This document shows, in pieces, positions 6,751 through 63,983 of a DNA stretch of 64,000 bases; within the stretch, counting starts at the first letter, position 1, and every line of letters starts with the position of its first letter. The notes under the pieces are model-generated. The model made no database searches. It saw nothing but the letters and a program-made list of their open reading frames with translations, and was not told the origin of the DNA. This DNA comes from Herpetosiphon geysericola. Its GTDB lineage: Bacteria > Chloroflexota > Chloroflexia > Chloroflexales > Herpetosiphonaceae. The position numbers and the translations under genes were made by a program. The DNA lies in NCBI RefSeq assembly GCF_001306135.1, contig NZ_LGKP01000021.1, forward strand, positions 1 to 64,000, read 5' to 3'.

Positions 6751-7497
6751 TTAGCTCAATTCGCGCAGATCAAGCGCTGGGCCATGGCTACACAACAATT
6801 TTGGCTGTTGACGGGTATTCTGCCAACACGCGCCACACATGCCAATCCCGCATGGGTAGGCTTGATCAACGATAAATGAGGCAAAGCCTTGTTGCCAAGC
6901 ATAACGCTCGCGGCGAATCCGTTGGCTCAAACGATTCGCCAAATCGATGCTGCCTGCGGCTAACAAACGATTGGCCCAAACCAACGGCGAATCAAGTTTG
7001 CCGCTACTTTCCAGCAAATCAAGCACATCGTCGCTGGTTGCCAAATATTCAATCTCTGCTGGCAGCACAAATGGCGGCACGCGCAACTCATCGCTGGCGC
7101 TGGCAAGCAGCAGCACAGGCGCGCCCGTTTCGCTGATGCGTTGGGCATAGAACAACATGCTGTAGATTGCATTGCCCTCAGCAATCAGCAACGTTGCTTT
7201 TTGGCCATCGCTACTCAGCGGTCGGCCCAACGGCCCAAGCACATCAAGCTCGCTGGCTTTGGGCATGCGCGCAATCGTCGCCAAGAGTGGGTCGTGCAAA
7301 TCCAAGGCCAAGGTGGCGGTGCTACTACGATTGGTCGCAATAATCCAAGCTCGACTGCGCAAGAATGGGTCGTTGCCCAAGCCATGATGCAGCATTGCCC
7401 ATTGGCCTGGCTGCGCGCTGGCAAGTTGCGGCGAGGCCACAGTCAGCAAGCCATAGTGCGAATTCAATTGTTGCTGATCGAGTATAACTGTTTGCAT
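6751..7497 (-). CDS. PyrK-like Fe-S/flavin electron transfer protein
   Basis: A roughly 248-residue protein whose C-terminus matches the [2Fe-2S]-binding domain of dihydroorotate dehydrogenase B electron transfer subunits: CGIGMCGAC with a fourth Cys in LLCSHGP, ending in the family-typical ALDLREL. The N-terminal two-thirds resemble a ferredoxin-reductase FAD/NAD fold (LDVLGPLGRPL, then ATLLIAEGNAIYSMLF), but the usual R-P-x-S-I flavin motif is not clear. The frame opens 32 codons further upstream, but that extension is translated repeat sequence, so ATG 7497 is chosen although no strong Shine-Dalgarno precedes it. No pyrD lies beside it. It could serve a distant PyrD or pass electrons for another dehydrogenase. 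Confidence 0.7.
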   Translation of the reverse strand: MQTVILDQQQLNSHYGLLTVASPQLASAQPGQWAMLHHGLGNDPFLRSRAWIIATNRSSTATLALDLHDPLLATIARMPKASELDVLGPLGRPLSSDGQKATLLIAEGNAIYSMLFYAQRISETGAPVLLLASASDELRVPPFVLPAEIEYLATSDDVLDLLESSGKLDSPLVWANRLLAAGSIDLANRLSQRIRRERYAWQQGFASFIVDQAYPCGIGMCGACWQNTRQQPKLLCSHGPALDLRELS

Positions 7498-7565
7498 ATC
7501 AGCATTATCCGAGAAGATCGAGGCTTGTGCAAGGAGTGTCTGAATGAGGGGGCAGGAATTTTTTG

Positions 7566-8012
7566 TTGATCCACGAAGAGCACGAAGGTACACGAAGAGT
7601 TATTGGCTTTGGGCTATCGGAGATAGATTGGAAATACCAAAATTTTATATTGATCCACGAAGGACACGAAGCTACACGAAGGGCTATTGACTGAGGGTTA
7701 GCGGAGATTGTTTGCAAATACCAAGGATAGGCGAGACAACAGGAATTTTTCGTTGATCCACGAAGAGCACGAAGTTACACGAAGTTAAGGCTGATTGAGT
7801 GGTTGCCTAATAATTGTAGAAATTTCAGGCAACCACCTTACCCAACATTCGTGCCCTTCGTGTCCTTCGTGGTTAAAAACGTATCTCGTAACCGCGAAGA
7901 ACGCGAAGGGCGCTAAGCTAAGGTTAATTGAGTAGTTGCCTGATAATTGTAGAAATCTCAGGCAACCACGAAACCCAACATTCGTGCTCTTCGTGTCCTT
8001 CGTGGATCAAAA
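7566..8012. repeat. Block of family A repeats (CACGAAG / TTCGTG units), both orientations
   Basis: This gap between the PyrK-like gene and pckA holds at least six clusters of tandem 8-10 base units such as CACGAAGAGCACGAAG and, inverted, TTCGTGTCCTTCGTGG, usually bordered by GATCCA or GGTTAA. A further unit (about 7805-7840 and 7928-7965) carries a repeated TGTAGAAAT(T/C)TCAGGCAACCAC. No credible gene is present; short ORFs here only translate the repeat. The same units recur near 19.1, 21.7-22.0, 32.8, 36.6 and 55.8 kb. Confidence 0.8.
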
Positions 8013-8015
8013 AGC

Positions 8016-9596
8016 CTACGCTTGTGGCCCGGCGTTTACCACGGTTTCGCCAGCGCGTTCGGCATATTGCTCGAAGTTTTTACGGAAGCGAGCGGCCAAA
8101 TCATCGGCAACCCGATCGTATTCGCTGGCATCGGCCCAGGTTTGGCGTGGTTGCAACACGCTGTTATCAACGCCTTCGATTGCCACAGGCACATCGAGGT
8201 TGAAACGCTCATCGTGCCACATTTCCACATTATCGAGCTTGCCTTCCAATGCGGCATGCACCATCGTGCGGGTATCGCGCAAGCTCATGCGCTTGCCAAC
8301 CCCGAAGGCTCCGCCAGTCCAGCCAGTGTTGACCAAAAATACTCGCACTTTGTGTTCGCGCATTTTTTGGCCGAGCAAATCGGCGTAAACAGTTGGATGC
8401 AATGGCATAAACGGTGCGCCAAAGCAGGTACTAAACGTTGCTTGTGGCTCCGAGCCAACGCCCGTTTCGGTGCCTGCCAACTTGGCGGTATAGCCCGACA
8501 AGAAGTGGTACATCGCTTGTTCAGGGCTGAGCTTGGCGATTGGCGGCAAGACCCCAAAGGCATCAGCGGTCAAGAAGATGATTGTTTCTGGTTGGCCGCC
8601 CATACCTGTTTCGCTGACGTTGGGAATGTATTCCAAGGGATAGGCGGCGCGGGTGTTTTCGGTCAACGACGCATCATCATAATTGGGATCGCGGCTATCG
8701 CTGAGCACCACATTTTCGAGCACAGCCCCATAGCGAATTGCATCGAAAATTTCTGGCTCCGATTCGCGGCGCAAGCGAATACACTTGGCATAGCAGCCGC
8801 CTTCAAAGTTGAACACGCCGTTGGCGCTCCAACCATGCTCATCATCGCCAATCAAAATCCGTTCGGGGTCGGCTGAGAGGGTGGTTTTGCCCGTGCCCGA
8901 AAGCCCGAAGAACAAGGCCACATCGCCTTTGCTGCCAATATTGGCTGAGCAGTGCATTGGCATCACGTTTTGGCTTGGCAGCACCATGTTCAACACCGTA
9001 AAGATCGATTTCTTGATCTCGCCAGCGTATTCAGTGCCCACAATCAAAATCAATTTTTCATCGAGATTGATCATGGCGGCAACTTCTGAGCGCGAACCAT
9101 CGACCGCTGGATCAAGTTTCAAACTTGGCAAGTTGAGCACTGTCCATTGGGGTTGTTGATCGCTACTGATCGCATCGCGGAACAATTGCTTAGCGAACAA
9201 GTTATGCCAGGCATACTCGGTCACCACACGAATTGGCAACGCATAGGCCGGATCAGCGCCAGCGCTGGCATCTAAAACAAACATCTCACGTTCGGCCATG
9301 TGCGCCAACGCCTTGGCCTTGATCGTGGCATAGGTTTCGGGCTGCATAGCTTTATGGAATTTCGTCCAGTGCATTGACACGGCTGCAGGTGTTTCCACCA
9401 CAAACTTATCATCTGCAGAACGACCCGTGCGGGCGCCCGTGGTGGCAACGACAGCCCCAGTAGCCGATAAAACGGCTTCGCCCCGTTTGAGCGCAGCTTC
9501 CACCAATTGCGGCACCGTTAAGTTGCGATAGGCTTGCTTGACATGTAAATTAGCGCCTACAGTGTCGCCTTCACTTAATACGGCTCGTTCGGTCAT
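8016..9596 (-). CDS. pckA: Phosphoenolpyruvate carboxykinase (ATP)
   Basis: A 526-residue ATP-type PEP carboxykinase, converting oxaloacetate plus ATP to PEP, CO2 and ADP: the entry step of gluconeogenesis. The kinase-1a P-loop GLSGTGKTTLS and the following metal site GDDEHGW are intact, as is the substrate-binding RTGRSADDKFVV near the N-terminus. Length agrees with the family. The ATG at 9596 is preceded by AAAGGAG at 7 bases. Monocistronic; its 3' side runs straight into repeat sequence. Together with P5C dehydrogenase upstream it suggests growth on amino acids. Confidence 0.96.
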   Translation of the reverse strand: MTERAVLSEGDTVGANLHVKQAYRNLTVPQLVEAALKRGEAVLSATGAVVATTGARTGRSADDKFVVETPAAVSMHWTKFHKAMQPETYATIKAKALAHMAEREMFVLDASAGADPAYALPIRVVTEYAWHNLFAKQLFRDAISSDQQPQWTVLNLPSLKLDPAVDGSRSEVAAMINLDEKLILIVGTEYAGEIKKSIFTVLNMVLPSQNVMPMHCSANIGSKGDVALFFGLSGTGKTTLSADPERILIGDDEHGWSANGVFNFEGGCYAKCIRLRRESEPEIFDAIRYGAVLENVVLSDSRDPNYDDASLTENTRAAYPLEYIPNVSETGMGGQPETIIFLTADAFGVLPPIAKLSPEQAMYHFLSGYTAKLAGTETGVGSEPQATFSTCFGAPFMPLHPTVYADLLGQKMREHKVRVFLVNTGWTGGAFGVGKRMSLRDTRTMVHAALEGKLDNVEMWHDERFNLDVPVAIEGVDNSVLQPRQTWADASEYDRVADDLAARFRKNFEQYAERAGETVVNAGPQA

Positions 9597-56606: not shown

Positions 56607-57536
56607 ATGAGCAACTGGGAAAAAACGTTTGGTAAGCGCGAATTACCAACACCTCCAGCATGGGTCAATTTTTTTAGTCCACAGCAATGGCAAGATTTTT
56701 GCCAAATCGTGCAGCGGTATTTGAAAAACCTCGGTTTACCGGTTCGCCCCGAAAACCAAGGCTTTGTGGTGCTGGCCGATTATGCTGGTTGGACCAAAGA
56801 CACCCGCATTGGGCTTAGCTCTTTGGCACAAAAATGCTATGCCCATCCCCAATCGCAATGGCTGGCAGTTATTACCGATCACTTTGAGGCAATGCACAAG
56901 GGCTTTGAAAACGAAGTGCTCTTGCAAGATGAAATAGACGATTTTGAAAGTGTTCGCGATTTGTTGGCGATTCGCTTGTGGGCCTTGGAGCCTGAATTGC
57001 GCGAAAAGCTGATCTATCGAGAGGATTTGCAGGATGTGTGCTCGGTGTTGGTCTTCGATTTGCCAACGACCATCCGCAGTGTTAGCAGCGACGAGGCCGC
57101 TGTTTGGGGCAAGAGCAACGATGAATTGTTTGCGATTGCCTTGGAAAACTTGCGGGGACGCGAGTTGCGCCTGACCGAACACGAGTTGGATGATGGGATC
57201 AATGTGCTGGCGATTACTGGCGACGATTTCTTGATTGGCTCGCAAAGTTTGTTGCTTGAGCACTATCCTCAATGTTTGGGCCGCTTTGGTACGTTGGTGG
57301 CTGTTCCCAATCGCCATGTGGTCTTGTGCTACCCAATTAATGAACCAATTGCCTTGGAAGCGTGGACGAGCATGCTGCCTGTGGTCGAAGGCATGTACCT
57401 GAACGGCCCTGGCTCGATCTCGAATCAGGTTTTTTGGTACGATAATGGCACATTTACCCATTTGCCGCATTCGCAAGAGCAACAATCGCTGCGCTTATCG
57501 CCGCCAAGCACCTTTTTAACTACGTTCCAAGAATAA
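56607..57536 (+). CDS. Conserved-looking cytoplasmic protein of unknown function (weak DUF1444/YtpQ resemblance)
   Basis: A 309-residue soluble protein without signal peptide or membrane helix. The middle (about 140-240) has features seen in DUF1444/YtpQ proteins: a stretch VLVFDLPTTIRSVSSDEA, then LFAIALENLRGRELRL and a strand-rich NVLAITGDDFLIGSQSLLLE followed by LVAVPNRHVVLCYPINE. I am not sure of the family. Start ATG 56607 has GGGGGG AACC upstream. Monocistronic with its own terminator. Confidence 0.7.
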   Translation: MSNWEKTFGKRELPTPPAWVNFFSPQQWQDFCQIVQRYLKNLGLPVRPENQGFVVLADYAGWTKDTRIGLSSLAQKCYAHPQSQWLAVITDHFEAMHKGFENEVLLQDEIDDFESVRDLLAIRLWALEPELREKLIYREDLQDVCSVLVFDLPTTIRSVSSDEAAVWGKSNDELFAIALENLRGRELRLTEHELDDGINVLAITGDDFLIGSQSLLLEHYPQCLGRFGTLVAVPNRHVVLCYPINEPIALEAWTSMLPVVEGMYLNGPGSISNQVFWYDNGTFTHLPHSQEQQSLRLSPPSTFLTTFQE

Positions 57537-58993: not shown

Positions 58994-59079
58994 TTGGCGG
59001 TTAATCAGGCATTGATGCGCACATTCGAAGATGTGACATTTGTGAAAAAGGTTATTAATCATTTACTCATCTTATTCGC

Positions 59080-59109
59080 TAGACAACTATTAATAATTAA
59101 AAGTATACT
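59080..59109 (+). promoter_or_regulatory. Candidate promoter of the peptide cluster
   Basis: TAGACA (59080-59085) and TATACT (59104-59109) with an 18-base spacer; the -10 is identical to those of the atp and amylase promoters. Predicted start near 59116, 30 bases before the first peptide gene. The surrounding 58994-59145 is markedly AT-rich. Confidence 0.6.
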
Positions 59110-59145
59110 AGCGATTAATTCACCGATTCATTATAAGGAGTACCC

Positions 59146-59244
59146 ATGAAGAAACTGACGATTCGCAAGACCGAAACCCTCAAAACGACCGCTGCGTTCT
59201 ATGCTGGTGGCTGTGGTGGCCCAATCATCATCGTTCTGCCATAA
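59146..59244 (+). CDS. RiPP-like precursor peptide 1
   Basis: A 32-residue peptide. The first 23 residues follow the family pattern MKK(I/L)xIRKxET then (L/V)KTTAAFYAG(G/S)C; the tail after Gly22 is CGGPIIIVLP. Ribosome site AAGGAG 5 bases before ATG. First of nine paralogues; its leader varies from the others mainly at synonymous sites. The tail has no Ser, Thr, Asp or Glu and has a single Cys. Putative product: a modified or cyclised short peptide released after the Gly-Gly (inference). Confidence 0.8.
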   Translation: MKKLTIRKTETLKTTAAFYAGGCGGPIIIVLP

Positions 59245-59369
59245 TAAACGTCGGCAAACCCAAAACCTCAACGAAGCAACACCTTTTCTCCTGCCTGCCC
59301 TTGCTTCAAAACCCAAACTTAAATGCCCTAAATTAAATACGATCATTTTCATTCCAATGAAGGATTTCC

Positions 59370-59474
59370 GTGAAAAAGATCACCATTCGTAAAGCTGAAA
59401 CCTTGAAAACCACTGCGGCATTTTATGCTGGCGGGTGTCATTCAGGCGGTGGTGGAATTATTGTAATTCCCTAA
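59370..59474 (+). CDS. RiPP-like precursor peptide 2 (GTG start)
   Basis: A 34-residue paralogue starting at GTG: the only upstream ATG (59357) is out of frame and AAGGA sits 6 bases before the GTG. Tail CHSGGGGIIVIP, the only one with His and a run of four Gly. The 125-base gap before it has no other ORF of the family. Confidence 0.75.
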   Translation: MKKITIRKAETLKTTAAFYAGGCHSGGGGIIVIP

Positions 59475-59589
59475 ACCTAGCAGCTAGCTACGATTTTGAA
59501 GCAACTACTCCCACATCTTGCTCCACTGCTTCAAAATAATTGAGGATGATCGTCGCACATTTAACTATCATCTTACAAGGAGCAACCCC

Positions 59590-59700
59590 ATGAAGAAAAT
59601 CATCATTCGCAAAGCTGAAACCGTCAAAACAACTGCTGCCTTCTACGCTGGTGGCTGTGGTACATCACCAATTGGCCCAGGCCGAATCCTGATTCCATAA
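59590..59700 (+). CDS. RiPP-like precursor peptide 3
   Basis: A 36-residue paralogue with leader variant MKKIIIRKAETVK and tail CGTSPIGPGRILIP. Ribosome site AAGGAG. The open frame extends 24 codons upstream, but those residues are unrelated to the family, so the ATG at 59590 is the start. Confidence 0.8.
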   Translation: MKKIIIRKAETVKTTAAFYAGGCGTSPIGPGRILIP

Positions 59701-59719
59701 GCACAACTCCACCCTCAAG

Positions 59720-59805
59720 CTATTTGCCTGCCTCTATCCTGCCTACTGCAAATAGTGCTTCAGATTTTTATTTTGGCTCATTAAACACCCCATCATTGCA
59801 ATGGG
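59720..59805 (+). other. Pair of hairpins in the spacer before precursor 4
   Basis: CTATTTGC (59720-59727) pairs with GCAAATAG (59748-59755), and CCCAT (59789-59793) with ATGGG (59801-59805) just before the ribosome site TTAGGAGTGT. The same pair recurs in the next spacer. Confidence 0.55.
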
Positions 59806-59822
59806 CTTATTAGGAGTGTCAC

Positions 59823-59936
59823 ATGAAAAAGATCACGATTCGCAAGGCTGAAACCGTCAAAACAACCGCTGCCTTCTATGCTGGTGGCTGTGGTGGCCCA
59901 ATTGGTCCAGGCCGCGGTGGCGTGCTAATCCCATAG
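59823..59936 (+). CDS. RiPP-like precursor peptide 4
   Basis: A 37-residue paralogue; tail CGGPIGPGRGGVLIP. The inner PIGPGR is shared with copy 3, showing tail exchange or common descent. Ribosome site TAGGAG 6 bases upstream. Confidence 0.8.
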   Translation: MKKITIRKAETVKTTAAFYAGGCGGPIGPGRGGVLIP

Positions 59937-59949
59937 GTTTTGCTTGTTG

Positions 59950-60040
59950 CTATTTGCATTTTTCGCTCTTTGCTCCCGCTGCAAATAGTTCCACAGATTC
60001 CCACATGAATCGATCTGAGCCTTCCCATTAACGCAATGGG
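59950..60040 (+). other. Pair of hairpins in the spacer before precursor 5
   Basis: CTATTTGCA (59950-59958) pairs with TGCAAATAG (59980-59988), and CCCATT (60024-60029) with AATGGG (60035-60040), placed 5-15 bases before the ribosome site. The layout copies that of the previous spacer while the loop sequences differ. Confidence 0.55.
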
Positions 60041-60057
60041 TTTATTAGGAGTGTGTT

Positions 60058-60153
60058 ATGAAAAAGCTTGCAATTCGCAAAGTTGAAACCCTCAAAACCA
60101 CCGCTGCCTTCTATGCTGGCGGCTGCGGCGGCCCACCACGCCAAATCCCATAG
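60058..60153 (+). CDS. RiPP-like precursor peptide 5
   Basis: A 31-residue paralogue with leader MKKLAIRKVETLK; tail CGGPPRQIP (9 residues). Its first 47 bases are identical to those of copy 6, implying a recent duplication. Ribosome site TAGGAG. Confidence 0.8.
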   Translation: MKKLAIRKVETLKTTAAFYAGGCGGPPRQIP

Positions 60154-60195
60154 GCTTGGCTGTTTGAATTATTTATTTGGGTTAAGGAGTGTGTT

Positions 60196-60288
60196 ATGAA
60201 AAAGCTTGCAATTCGCAAAGTTGAAACCCTCAAAACCACCGCAGCATTCTACGCTGGTGGCTGCGGCGGCCCTCGCCCGCTTCCATAA
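60196..60288 (+). CDS. RiPP-like precursor peptide 6
   Basis: A 30-residue paralogue, tail CGGPRPLP (8 residues, among the shortest). Only 42 bases separate it from copy 5; spacer hairpins are absent from here on, and ribosome site AAGGAGTGTGTT is kept. Confidence 0.8.
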   Translation: MKKLAIRKVETLKTTAAFYAGGCGGPRPLP

Positions 60289-60329
60289 GCTTCTCGGCTT
60301 AATTGATCAGCAACTTTTAGGAGTGTGTC

Positions 60330-60422
60330 ATGAAAAAGATCACCATTCGCAAGACTGAAACCCTAAAAACCACCGCCGCTTTCTATGCTGGCAGCTGTGG
60401 CCCAATCTTCGCCCAACCCTAG
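60330..60422 (+). CDS. RiPP-like precursor peptide 7
   Basis: A 30-residue paralogue with Gly-Ser instead of Gly-Gly before the Cys; tail CGPIFAQP, the only one with Ala, and one of two with Phe. Ribosome site TAGGAG. Confidence 0.8.
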   Translation: MKKITIRKTETLKTTAAFYAGSCGPIFAQP

Positions 60423-60465
60423 TTTATTCGCCGAAATCTAGATTATTGCTAAAGGGGGATTTCCA

Positions 60466-60579
60466 ATGAAAAAGATCACGATTCGCAAGGCTGAAACCCT
60501 GAAAACGACCGCTGCATTCTATGCTGGCGGCTGTGGTGGCCCAATCATCATCAGCCCATTCCCAGTGCTTGAACCATAG
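60466..60579 (+). CDS. RiPP-like precursor peptide 8
   Basis: A 37-residue paralogue; tail CGGPIIISPFPVLEP, which begins like the tail of copy 1 (CGGPIII) and then extends. Ribosome site AAGGGGG followed by ATTTCCA, similar to the spacer of copy 2. Confidence 0.8.
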   Translation: MKKITIRKAETLKTTAAFYAGGCGGPIIISPFPVLEP

Positions 60580-60612
60580 GTTTTTTGGCTCGACGGTGGG
60601 TAAGGAGGATCT

Positions 60613-60729
60613 ATGAAAAAGATTAAGATTCGCAAAGTCGAAACCCTTAAAACAACGGCGGCCTTTTACGCAGGCTCCTGCGACCCAATTGGCCCCGGTG
60701 ATCCCATTCCCATCCTCGTTGGTGCTTAA
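60613..60729 (+). CDS. RiPP-like precursor peptide 9
   Basis: A 38-residue paralogue, the longest and most divergent: Gly-Ser before Cys, tail CDPIGPGDPIPILVGA, the only one not ending in Pro and with two Asp. Ribosome site AAGGAGG. It is 73 bases upstream of the PqqD-M50 gene. Confidence 0.8.
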   Translation: MKKIKIRKVETLKTTAAFYAGSCDPIGPGDPIPILVGA

Positions 60730-60802: not shown

Positions 60803-62107
60803 ATGACAAGTATGGTTGCTGCCTCGACGAATCCTTTGTATACAGCATCAGCCTATGTTGATGTGTATCCATTTGTTCGGCAAGAGGAGAGCGAAGAAGA
60901 ATTATTAATTGGGCGCGTCGATACCAATAACTTCATCATGCTGCCCAAAGAAGCCGTTGAAATCCTCGATGATTTGGCACACGGCAAAACCATTGGCGAG
61001 GCACAAGCCCTGTATGCTGAACGCTATGGTGAAATTCCCGATTTGGTCGATCTCCTCGAACAATTAGAATCCGAAGGCTTTGTCCAGCCGCTCCAATCGG
61101 ATACTGTGCGCTTTGGCCAACAAGCGTCAACCAATGCAGCTCAAGCTGTTGCAACCACCCCCAATCAACCGCGCACTGTGCGCTTTCACTTCACGTTTTT
61201 TCCGGTGCGGCTAGCCCAACTCTTGTTCAGCCCAATTGCGTTGGCTTTGTATGCGATTGTGATTGGTGGTGCGGCGGCGATTGTGCTGTCCCAACCATCG
61301 ATTGTGGCAGGCTGGCGGGCAATGGTCGTCGATGAGCAAATGGCGCTGTTTACCTTAATTATTATGCTTCATGGCTTTGTCATCACCTTTTTTCACGAGC
61401 TTGGCCATGCAGTGGCCGCCCGATCGCGCGGCATTGATGTGCGCTTTGGGATTGGGCGACGCTTATGGGTAATTGTGGCCGAAACCGATATGTCGGGAAT
61501 TTGGTCGATTAAGCGCAATCTGCGCTTTTTGCCAATTCTGGCGGGCATGGTGGTCGATTTGCTCAGCGCCGCGATTATGATTTACTTGGCGTTTATGCAC
61601 CAGCGCCAAATCATTAATCTTTCGGATTTTGGCTATGTTTTGGTGCGGGCATTTATGTGGAGCTACCTGCTGAATTTGCTGTTTCAGCTGTATTTCTTCG
61701 TGCGCACCGATATTTATTATTTCCTCTCAACTTGGTTACGTTGCTCAAACCTCATGGGCGATACCGCTAATTATATGATCAATCAGTTCAATCGTTTAAT
61801 GGGTCGCCCAGAATCACATAACCAAGCGGCAATTCCCGAACGAGAGCGCACAATTATTAAGCGCTATGCTTTTTTCTGGCTCATCGGGCGGGTGCTTGCT
61901 TTCTATTCGTTGTTCTTCTTAACCCTGCCAATTTTATGGAGCTACGCCAGCATTTTGTTTGAACGCATGTTTGGTAGTTCAAGCAACAACCTGCAAGTGC
62001 TCGATTCAATTTTGGCAGCCATTTTGATCTTTATCAGCCAAGCCGTTGGAATCTTCCTTTGGCTTTGGAGCTTGATCCGCAGAAAGGTTAGCGTCGATGA
62101 CATCTAA
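60803..62107 (+). CDS. Membrane M50 metallopeptidase with N-terminal PqqD-like domain
   Basis: A 434-residue protein. Residues about 20-98 look like a PqqD-type winged helix (FIMLPKEAVEILDDLAHGKTI, AERYGEIPDLVDLLEQLESEGFV), the fold of many RiPP leader-recognition elements. Six or so membrane helices follow. The peptidase motif is FFHELGHAVAARSRG (His198, Glu199, His202), and LAGMVVDLL (247-255) supplies the second-motif Asp252; FVRTDIYYFLS and VAETDMSGIW match the putative-peptide-zinc-metalloprotease subgroup of M50. Family knowledge: such peptidases occur in RiPP loci (e.g. YydH, daptide MpaP). Inferred role: binds the conserved leaders and cleaves them at or in the membrane. The upstream ribosome site is weak (AGAAGGGTGGG); ATG 60812 is an alternative. 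Confidence 0.87.
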   Translation: MTSMVAASTNPLYTASAYVDVYPFVRQEESEEELLIGRVDTNNFIMLPKEAVEILDDLAHGKTIGEAQALYAERYGEIPDLVDLLEQLESEGFVQPLQSDTVRFGQQASTNAAQAVATTPNQPRTVRFHFTFFPVRLAQLLFSPIALALYAIVIGGAAAIVLSQPSIVAGWRAMVVDEQMALFTLIIMLHGFVITFFHELGHAVAARSRGIDVRFGIGRRLWVIVAETDMSGIWSIKRNLRFLPILAGMVVDLLSAAIMIYLAFMHQRQIINLSDFGYVLVRAFMWSYLLNLLFQLYFFVRTDIYYFLSTWLRCSNLMGDTANYMINQFNRLMGRPESHNQAAIPERERTIIKRYAFFWLIGRVLAFYSLFFLTLPILWSYASILFERMFGSSSNNLQVLDSILAAILIFISQAVGIFLWLWSLIRRKVSVDDI

Positions 62108-63983
62108 GAGCAAGCAATTAATCGTCTGGGTGGGCAATACTGGCGCGCAACGAACCGAAGCCGCCCAAGCATGGCTCGCTCAACAATCTGCGGCACGTAC
62201 CTGGCTGCTGAGCATGAATCGGGCCAATTTGGGCCATTGGGCTGGGCTGAATAGCTTTGTTAGCTCGCTCTTGCCCGAAATTAAAGCCCAAGCGCCTGAA
62301 CTTTTGGTCAAATATGATTATGAATTGGCCTTAGTGCTGCCCCAATTGCAACGTGAATTGGCCGTGCGCAACCCAAGCCTGACCGATATTAGCAATCCTC
62401 AAGAACGCACGCGCAATTATGCAGCCGATCGCGCCTTTCGGATTGTGCAAGGCTTGATCGATATGCTGCATGAGTTTCGCCAACATACGCCCGACCAAGC
62501 TTGGGTGATTGTCTGCGATCAGTTTGATCAGGCTGGCTCGTTGGTCACGATGTTTTTCAAAGAATTATTGCGCCGCGCCGACCAACGCTTTGGCTTGACG
62601 ATTGGCTTTTTGATTGAGCCAAACGCTGAGTTACTCGCCGACTATCAAAGTTGGGCCGAGCATGTCGAGGTTATCAATGGCGCTTGGCAAGCTGATCAGC
62701 CAGTTGCTGCATTAGATCCTGCTGAGGCTAAGCAACAGCTTGATGAGCTAGAGCGCGACCACACCTTTGATCCAATTGAAATTGAATTGCACTTGCCGCA
62801 ATTGATTCAGCTGGCAACCGCTGCCAACGAGCCACGCAAGCGGCTTGGCTTTATGCACGAAGGGCTTTCGATCTGCTCAACGCGCGGCTTGTATGCAGAT
62901 GCGCTATATTATGGCGAGCCGTTGCAAGTTGAAATGGAGCGCGATTTCCCTAAGAGCGTTGATTTTCGGCTCAGCGCTTATTTGAAGCTCTACAATTGTT
63001 ATATTGGGCTAAAACAGGCCGAGCCAGCTTTGGCAATTGCCGAAACTGCGGTGAGCATTACCGATAATCCAGCCCGTTTATTTAGCTGGTATTACTTGAT
63101 TGCGATGATTCATGGGCGCTTTGCAGTGCCCCGCGATTATGATCAGGCAGAGCATTATCTTAATTTGGGCATTGAAGCGATTCAGCAGGCTGATATTCCG
63201 GCCCAAGAAAAACTCTTCCAATCATCGTTTAATCGCAATGGCTTGGCATTAATTCGCCACTTCCAAAAACGGCCCTTGGAAGCAATTGAAATTTGCCAAG
63301 AATGTTACAAACAGCTAGAAACTGGCTTGGATACTGAGGAACATAAATTACATCGCTCGGTGTTGCTGTATAACATTGCCCAAGTATACGATTCGCTCAA
63401 AGATTACCAGAATGCGCTGCACTATTACACCTTGACGATTGAAATGGACCCCAACTACGCCGAATATTATAATGAGCGCGCTAATATTTATCTGCAAATT
63501 GGCGATTATGCAGCAGCCGAGCGTGATTATCGTCAATCGATCGAGCTTAGCCCGCCGTATACCGAAGTGTGGACCAACCTTGCTCAATGTTACCAATTGC
63601 AAGACGAGTTTGAGCAAGCAGTTGGCGCATTTAGCCGAGCGCTAGATATTGATCCCAAAAATGTGGTGGCGCTCAACCATCGGGCCGAATGCTACGAAGC
63701 TTTGGGCCAAACTCAGGCTGCGATCGACGATTATAGCGATAGCCTGAGGCTCAAACCAAGCGACTCAGGCATTGTTGCCAACCGCGCAATTCTCTATTAT
63801 GAGCTTGGCGATTTGGTTGCCTCGTTGGCCGATTTGAACACCGCGATTGAATTGCAGCCCGATTTGGCTGAGCTGTATGAAAATCGCGCGGTAGCCTTGG
63901 AAGCGCTCGAACGCTATCCAGAAGCTGAGCACGATCGCCAACAAGCGATATTGTTGGCCAACGCCCACGAAGTTAATGCCTAA
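62097..63983 (+). CDS. TPR protein with degenerate NTPase-like N-terminal domain
   Basis: A 628-residue cytoplasmic protein, start overlapping the M50 stop by 11 bases (AAAGG upstream), so cotranslated. The N-terminal 195 residues resemble an AAA/STAND ATPase fold but the P-loop position reads VWVGNTGAQRT without the Gly-Lys-Thr, while a Walker B-like VIVCDQFDQ is present. From about 240 to 628 there are roughly ten TPR-like units, the last six canonical (YYNERANIYLQIGDYAAAERDY, ALNHRAECYEALGQTQAAIDDY). Probably a scaffold for the peptide maturation or export complex (inference). Confidence 0.85.
   Translation: MTSKSKQLIVWVGNTGAQRTEAAQAWLAQQSAARTWLLSMNRANLGHWAGLNSFVSSLLPEIKAQAPELLVKYDYELALVLPQLQRELAVRNPSLTDISNPQERTRNYAADRAFRIVQGLIDMLHEFRQHTPDQAWVIVCDQFDQAGSLVTMFFKELLRRADQRFGLTIGFLIEPNAELLADYQSWAEHVEVINGAWQADQPVAALDPAEAKQQLDELERDHTFDPIEIELHLPQLIQLATAANEPRKRLGFMHEGLSICSTRGLYADALYYGEPLQVEMERDFPKSVDFRLSAYLKLYNCYIGLKQAEPALAIAETAVSITDNPARLFSWYYLIAMIHGRFAVPRDYDQAEHYLNLGIEAIQQADIPAQEKLFQSSFNRNGLALIRHFQKRPLEAIEICQECYKQLETGLDTEEHKLHRSVLLYNIAQVYDSLKDYQNALHYYTLTIEMDPNYAEYYNERANIYLQIGDYAAAERDYRQSIELSPPYTEVWTNLAQCYQLQDEFEQAVGAFSRALDIDPKNVVALNHRAECYEALGQTQAAIDDYSDSLRLKPSDSGIVANRAILYYELGDLVASLADLNTAIELQPDLAELYENRAVALEALERYPEAEHDRQQAILLANAHEVNA

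Follow-up and report, generated by a model that had tools for sequence, protein, structure and literature searches.

Tandem short-peptide precursors beside an RRE-site-2 protease and a TPR protein in Herpetosiphon geysericola and in other bacterial phyla

The window analysed here is a stretch of 64,000 nucleotides from Herpetosiphon geysericola (contig NZ_LGKP01000021.1, positions 1 to 64,000; host genome 6.1 Mb). Our reading of its ORFs places nine precursor genes of 30 to 38 codons on the plus strand between 59146 and 60729, each preceded by an RBS-like stretch: precursor 1 (MKKLTIRKTETLKTTAAFYAGGCGGPIIIVLP; 59146..59244), precursor 2 (MKKITIRKAETLKTTAAFYAGGCHSGGGGIIVIP; 59370..59474, with a GTG start), precursor 3 (MKKIIIRKAETVKTTAAFYAGGCGTSPIGPGRILIP; 59590..59700), precursor 4 (MKKITIRKAETVKTTAAFYAGGCGGPIGPGRGGVLIP; 59823..59936), precursor 5 (MKKLAIRKVETLKTTAAFYAGGCGGPPRQIP; 60058..60153), precursor 6 (MKKLAIRKVETLKTTAAFYAGGCGGPRPLP; 60196..60288), precursor 7 (MKKITIRKTETLKTTAAFYAGSCGPIFAQP; 60330..60422), precursor 8 (MKKITIRKAETLKTTAAFYAGGCGGPIIISPFPVLEP; 60466..60579), and precursor 9 (MKKIKIRKVETLKTTAAFYAGSCDPIGPGDPIPILVGA; 60613..60729). 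They share the motif MKK[IL]xIRKxET[LV]KTTAAFYAG[GS]C. The composition given in the preliminary description was borne out: all nine contain one Cys, directly after Gly-Gly (seven) or Gly-Ser (two); eight end in Pro, the remaining one in ...ILVGA; and six tails are free of Ser and Thr (CGGPIIIVLP, CGGPIGPGRGGVLIP, CGGPPRQIP, CGGPRPLP, CGPIFAQP, and CDPIGPGDPIPILVGA). Its further statement that Asp and Glu are missing from the ring positions holds for tails 1 to 8 and fails for tail 9 (CDPIGPGDP...), which has Asp at core positions 2 and 8. The array is followed, after a gap of 73 bp, by the gene of a 434-aa M50 protein and then by that of a 628-aa TPR protein, the latter two overlapping by 11 nt.

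The DNA around the array offers few signals. A promoter-like site, TAGACA-18-TATACT (59080..59109, plus strand), lies 36 bp ahead of precursor 1 within an AT-rich imperfect inverted repeat (59072-59118); it is a consensus match only, four such sites being found where 2.8 were expected, and the promoter and terminator scan of the locus stayed close to shuffle level. An Rfam scan gave no match at the array locus. Two intergenic hairpins, between precursors 3 and 4 (59720-59755) and between precursors 4 and 5 (59950-59988), have the same arms (CTATTTGC/GCAAATAG) and carry no T-runs; they are perhaps RNA processing sites. Upstream, at 56607-57536, lies the gene of a 309-aa protein with no Pfam match, which precedes the array in the array-bearing genomes of the same genus. 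GNAT enzymes, YdjM, and an amine-oxidase-like flavoprotein are neighbours of the array within the genus only, as judged from the loci read.

Selection on the precursors is evident from two comparisons. Among the leaders of the nine paralogs, pS at synonymous sites is 0.52 against a pN of 0.08 at non-synonymous sites, and between orthologs from different species pN/pS is about 0.02-0.18 for the leaders and about 0.17-0.38 for the tails. Since purifying selection acts on the leader as well as on the orthologous tails, the window ORFs are real coding genes whose tails are individually kept. Within the genus, every one of the 28 distinct tails has a single Cys, 24 end in Pro, and 17 are without Ser or Thr; all genus copies have Gly-Gly or Gly-Ser ahead of the Cys. 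Compared with NCBIfam and Pfam, the precursors gave sub-threshold noise only (TIGR04065 at E 0.036, DUF2620, YbaK). As in RiPPs, there is an encoded precursor with a conserved leader and a variable core under purifying selection, and a leader-binding (RRE) domain, recognized by its fold, is linked to it.

This domain belongs to the 434-aa protein (60803..62107, plus strand; Pfam Peptidase_M50, E 3.9e-7; AF2 model with a mean pLDDT of 82), a fusion of an RRE with a site-2 protease. Its RRE or PqqD-like part comprises residues 17-99 (60851..61099, plus strand). In VIA-align the AF2 model of this part reached Z 10.3 with the lasso RRE TbiB1 (5v1v) and 9.9 with the lasso RRE 6jx3, both of them structures of complexes with leader peptides, and PqqD Pfam matches occur in six of 21 members of the protease family (best E 0.0046). 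Residues 177-379 adopt the site-2 protease fold by the same method (RseP 7w6x, Z 9.0; SpoIVFB 8vjl, 8.0; mjS2P 3b4r, 7.6). The HExxH zinc motif (H198, E199, H202; 61394..61408, plus strand) and the distal D303 within YFFVRTDIYY (61709..61711, plus strand), the expected third zinc ligand, are invariant in all 21 members, which together with the fold marks the protein as a site-2 (M50) protease. With the full-length protein, Foldseek returned no hit at E<0.001; the matches for the single domains are those of VIA-align. The NCBIfam model daptide_HExxH (NF041824) scores 42.4 bits against a cut-off of 300.

The 628-aa protein (62097..63983, plus strand; AF2 mean pLDDT 91) consists of a degenerate STAND/AAA_16-like N-terminus (about residues 1-200) and a TPR superhelix (about 246-626); its fold matches cover the TPR part only. 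AAA_16 is matched by eight of 20 members of the family (best E 6.8e-5), but Walker A is absent, and actinomycete members have a shorter N-terminus. Because these AAA_16 matches come without Walker A, the protein looks like an ATPase-dead relative of the STAND proteins. Groove-facing TPR positions show no significant excess of conservation over the other positions (p 0.16), and Pfam shows in the linked protein only the TPRs and the AAA_16 relic, with no HTH or Rap-type effector domain. Regulators of related architecture stand near several precursors: BTAD/NB-ARC/TPR regulators lie divergently upstream of the actinomycete precursors at loci L117, L120, and L121 (a family scan identified the first two; L121 was assigned by its similarity in sequence to L120), a BTAD/AAA regulator downstream at the cyanobacterial locus L086, and an HTH-TPR regulator divergently upstream at L039. 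A regulatory role for the TPR protein is plausible.

Among 60 relatives searched, the array was found in four genomes of the same genus, the host included (9-13 copies; 11-13 in each of the three further genomes), and shorter arrays in three other Chloroflexota. A wider search with the protease as bait, covering one genome per species in 84,980 species, returned cyanobacterial, actinomycete, Rubrobacter-MAG, and Bacillota-MAG loci, with the same type of precursor at nearly all of them. The leader MKKIxIRKxETLKTTAA and the two fixed genes recur in Cyanobacteria, Actinomycetota, other Chloroflexota, and two MAGs (labelled Rubrobacter and Bacillota); the trio is present in at least three bacterial phyla. 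By profile searches, six of 296 genomes of the class of Phytomonospora and three of 291 of the cyanobacterial class were positive (seed genomes included). Even the weak precursor matches (E 1e-6 to 1e-4) each adjoin a TPR gene, and in every case but one the protease as well. The actinomycete loci hold 1-10 precursors of the type MKKIAIRKTETVRLTSAAQPLY...C, in tandem where there are several; short divergent precursors such as MKKIKVRKAGTVRLTTSAAIYATPLCWPV are found directly upstream of the protease and TPR genes. In the protease tree the Rubrobacter MAG protease sits among the cyanobacterial ones, and its locus is therefore possibly a product of transfer or of mis-binning. Viral contigs searched contained no relative of the protease, and PADLOC gave no defence model for the protease and only generic TPR-like matches for the TPR protein. 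The leader sequences are absent from the open-access papers searched, the literature to which our search was limited. The precursor family is real and widespread and apparently undescribed; the protease that accompanies it is of a kind already known.

Some loci depart from the common arrangement. Genome G706 has a precursor and a TPR gene, with a relative of the protease nowhere in the genome; at this locus (L118, G706:C25, near 8695) the precursor, MKKIIVRKPGTVKLTGTASVIHKG, is Cys-free. Locus L090, on a Gloeobacterales contig (1-17200), has precursor and protease with neither a full-length TPR partner nor an adjacent TPR gene; beside them lie, as judged by eye, C39/NHLM-like transporters and an apparent polyketide synthase and enediyne-type accessory membrane genes. 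At L119 (G426:C45, 6272-7087) four near-identical precursors (MKKFVIREVETLRTTRAAAYVCWICSNCW) with a spacing of about 235 bp stand at a contig end, and a different contig carries the protease gene. The second precursor of L036 (near 4760; VKKITLRKAETLKTPAALNAGGCNSGVGRIIMIR) is a drifted copy without Tyr19 and other leader residues, and is possibly decaying. Tails that end in W-P-[FLV] soon after the Cys occur at L081, L087, L115, and L116 (a Rubrobacter MAG, a Bacillota MAG, and two actinomycetes), which suggests transfer or a common target.

A comparison outside the genus, of 34 precursors at 21 loci, separates what is general from what is local. K3, R7, and T15 never vary, and K2, I/V6, and E10 hardly do; variability begins after about residue 17, and it is there, not at the Gly-Gly, that conservation across phyla stops. 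A leader end at the double glycine, as proposed in the preliminary description, is consequently unlikely. Several Cys are present in ten of the 34 and none in two (at L118 and L124); Gly-Gly or Gly-Ser immediately precedes the first Cys in six, and one ends in Pro. On this sequence comparison the Gly-Gly-Cys start and the Pro end are mostly local to Herpetosiphon, being rare elsewhere. The earlier suggestion of a cut after the double glycine, leaving a free N-terminal Cys, and of cyclisation based on Cys and Pro does not describe the family's common chemistry, because single Cys, Gly-Gly or Gly-Ser, and Pro end are mostly lost outside the genus. In 30 of the 34 precursors a Cys stands no more than six residues after a Tyr (Y-x(1-5)-C), a spacing that hints at some thiol chemistry.

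A sister branch pairs the RRE-M50 protein with an E1/ThiF adenylyltransferase and has no TPR protein (L122, L123, L125, L126, L127, and L128). Its hosts are Streptomyces and Actinacidiphila plasmids, Nonomuraea, and the same-genus genome G002, which has MQKVTIQIRKLEKIETTGARHAQGAG (L128, G002:C1:318000-336000, with the system at 6930-9530). Some of these systems include a small candidate precursor with an IRKLExxETT-like motif and tails such as GARHAQGAG and SWRDGGG (RRLERVETTNSPCANAS at L123). The partner label, TPR or E1/ThiF, is clustered on the protease tree, whether by one switch or several.

The computed basis for an interpretation consists of the conserved trio, the leader and tail pattern, coding selection, the RRE and site-2 protease folds, the intact catalytic residues, and the lost P-loop. 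We propose that the leader is removed within the membrane under guidance of the RRE and that short hypervariable peptides are thereby released, which probably carry no modification or a disulfide bond; the TPR protein would be a binding partner or a receptor. We give this reading a probability of roughly 0.55. Each precursor joins an invariant leader (about residues 1-17) to a hypervariable tail of only about 7-23 residues. The leader would pair with the RRE domain of the membrane site-2 protease, which would cut near residues 16-18, taking the leader off and freeing the tail peptide at the membrane. The loci read contain no known RiPP-modifying enzyme with the module; because none is linked, an unmodified or disulfide-bonded peptide is the default, and most likely the product is a linear peptide or one with a disulfide, although an enzyme encoded away from the locus could modify it. 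The TPR protein most likely binds the precursor or the freed peptide, and may be an intracellular receptor, a regulator, or a scaffold. Against the proposal weigh the Tyr-Cys spacing kept in most tails, the groove-facing TPR positions without significant extra conservation, and the incomplete trios of G706 and L090. If this is true, a peptide-maturation module has been cut down to a leader, an RRE-protease, and a TPR partner, in at least three phyla, a single genome having as many as 13 different tails. The module looks like a route to short bacterial peptides, perhaps signals, that has not been described before; it would offer a ready set of such peptides and a simple test of whether the RRE serves peptide signalling as well as natural-product chemistry. 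Tentatively, one may go further and see here a form of cross-phylum signalling beyond the classical Bacillota systems, in which the protease frees sets of pheromones for an ATPase-dead STAND/TPR receptor, with the BTAD and HTH-TPR regulators nearby; we consider this possible, if somewhat doubtful.

The peptides might instead be true RiPPs, their Cys, often with an upstream Tyr or a Trp, being cross-linked or cyclised by a distantly encoded enzyme, or their released end being transpeptidated by the site-2 protease itself. The presence of Cys in all distinct genus tails and in 32 of the 34 other precursors, the frequent Tyr-Cys spacing, and the E1/ThiF enzyme that accompanies the sister proteases speak for it; yet none of the loci read has such an enzyme linked, the number and position of the Cys vary down to the two Cys-free precursors, and ligation is not known for site-2 proteases, all of which makes this reading rather unlikely. 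The sister branch, which links the protease to a real enzyme in place of the TPR protein, also speaks for the idea that the TPR protein, the only other constant gene of the module, is not a receptor but itself modifies peptides, as an enzyme that has escaped recognition or as a component that a modification complex cannot do without. An N-terminus that is a relic without Walker A, shortened in actinomycetes, and joined to ordinary TPRs argues against such a function, which we regard as distinctly improbable.

It is more improbable still that the precursors are bacteriocins of the double-glycine type, from which a C39 peptidase transporter encoded elsewhere would cleave the leader after Gly-Gly or Gly-Ser to give an N-terminal Cys. 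The motif is present in every genus copy and the host genome has two C39 domains, but these are not near the array, the adjoining protease is of the RRE-site-2 kind, the motif adjoins the first Cys in so few copies outside the genus, and Phytomonospora G429 has Gly-Gly-Cys precursors with no Peptidase_C39 match in its genome; membership in the class was rejected. A daptide-type system, which the RRE-site-2 fusion, the multiple precursors, and the weak match to the daptide protease model would recall, is scarcely credible: the score is far under the cut-off, C-terminal Thr is missing, and the locus has no set of oxidoreductase, aminotransferase, and methyltransferase.

That the array belongs to no standard RiPP class, as first described, is supported: precursors and module genes fall below every RiPP family cut-off, nor does a lanthionine, YcaO, radical-SAM, lasso, or P450 gene adjoin the array. 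Lanthipeptides were rejected on the six tails without Ser or Thr and on flanking genes that include no LanB/C/M/KC/L enzyme. Lasso peptides were rejected as well: no B2 peptidase or C cyclase gene is adjacent, and Asp8 of tail 9 is the only acidic residue at ring positions 7-9. Daptides (MpaA, MpaP; PMC10036551) are similar in their short precursors, often several per locus, and in the N-terminal RRE on an intramembrane site-2 protease (MpaP) that removes the leaders; they differ in their MpaB/C/D/M genes, none of which is adjacent here, in their ELExMEAP leader and C-terminal Thr, and in lacking the TPR partner, and membership was rejected on the protease score and the missing enzymes. Epipeptides and TMcins have their leaders removed by membrane M50/S2P-clan enzymes (PMC10885120, PMC13252029), the kind of intramembrane removal proposed here. 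Unlike them, the present system has a TPR partner and no radical SAM epimerase, transmembrane precursor, or linked ABC transporter. In RRNPP systems, maturation by a membrane protease (Eep) resembles that proposed here. These systems (PMC10075063) also have a small propeptide gene adjoining that of a TPR protein, and short hydrophobic tails; the trio shows the same arrangement, with a putative receptor role for its TPR protein. Membership was nevertheless rejected for want of an HTH in the linked TPR protein; the leader, moreover, looks like an RRE-type leader and not a Sec signal, and the hosts are mostly outside Bacillota. The E1/ThiF systems have a homologous RRE-site-2 protease and the leader-like IRKLExxETT in the candidate precursors of G002 and Nonomuraea, although an E1-like adenylyltransferase replaces the TPR protein and their proteases are mostly more distant in the tree. 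These systems show that proteases of this kinship can work alongside what is likely a modifying enzyme, too.
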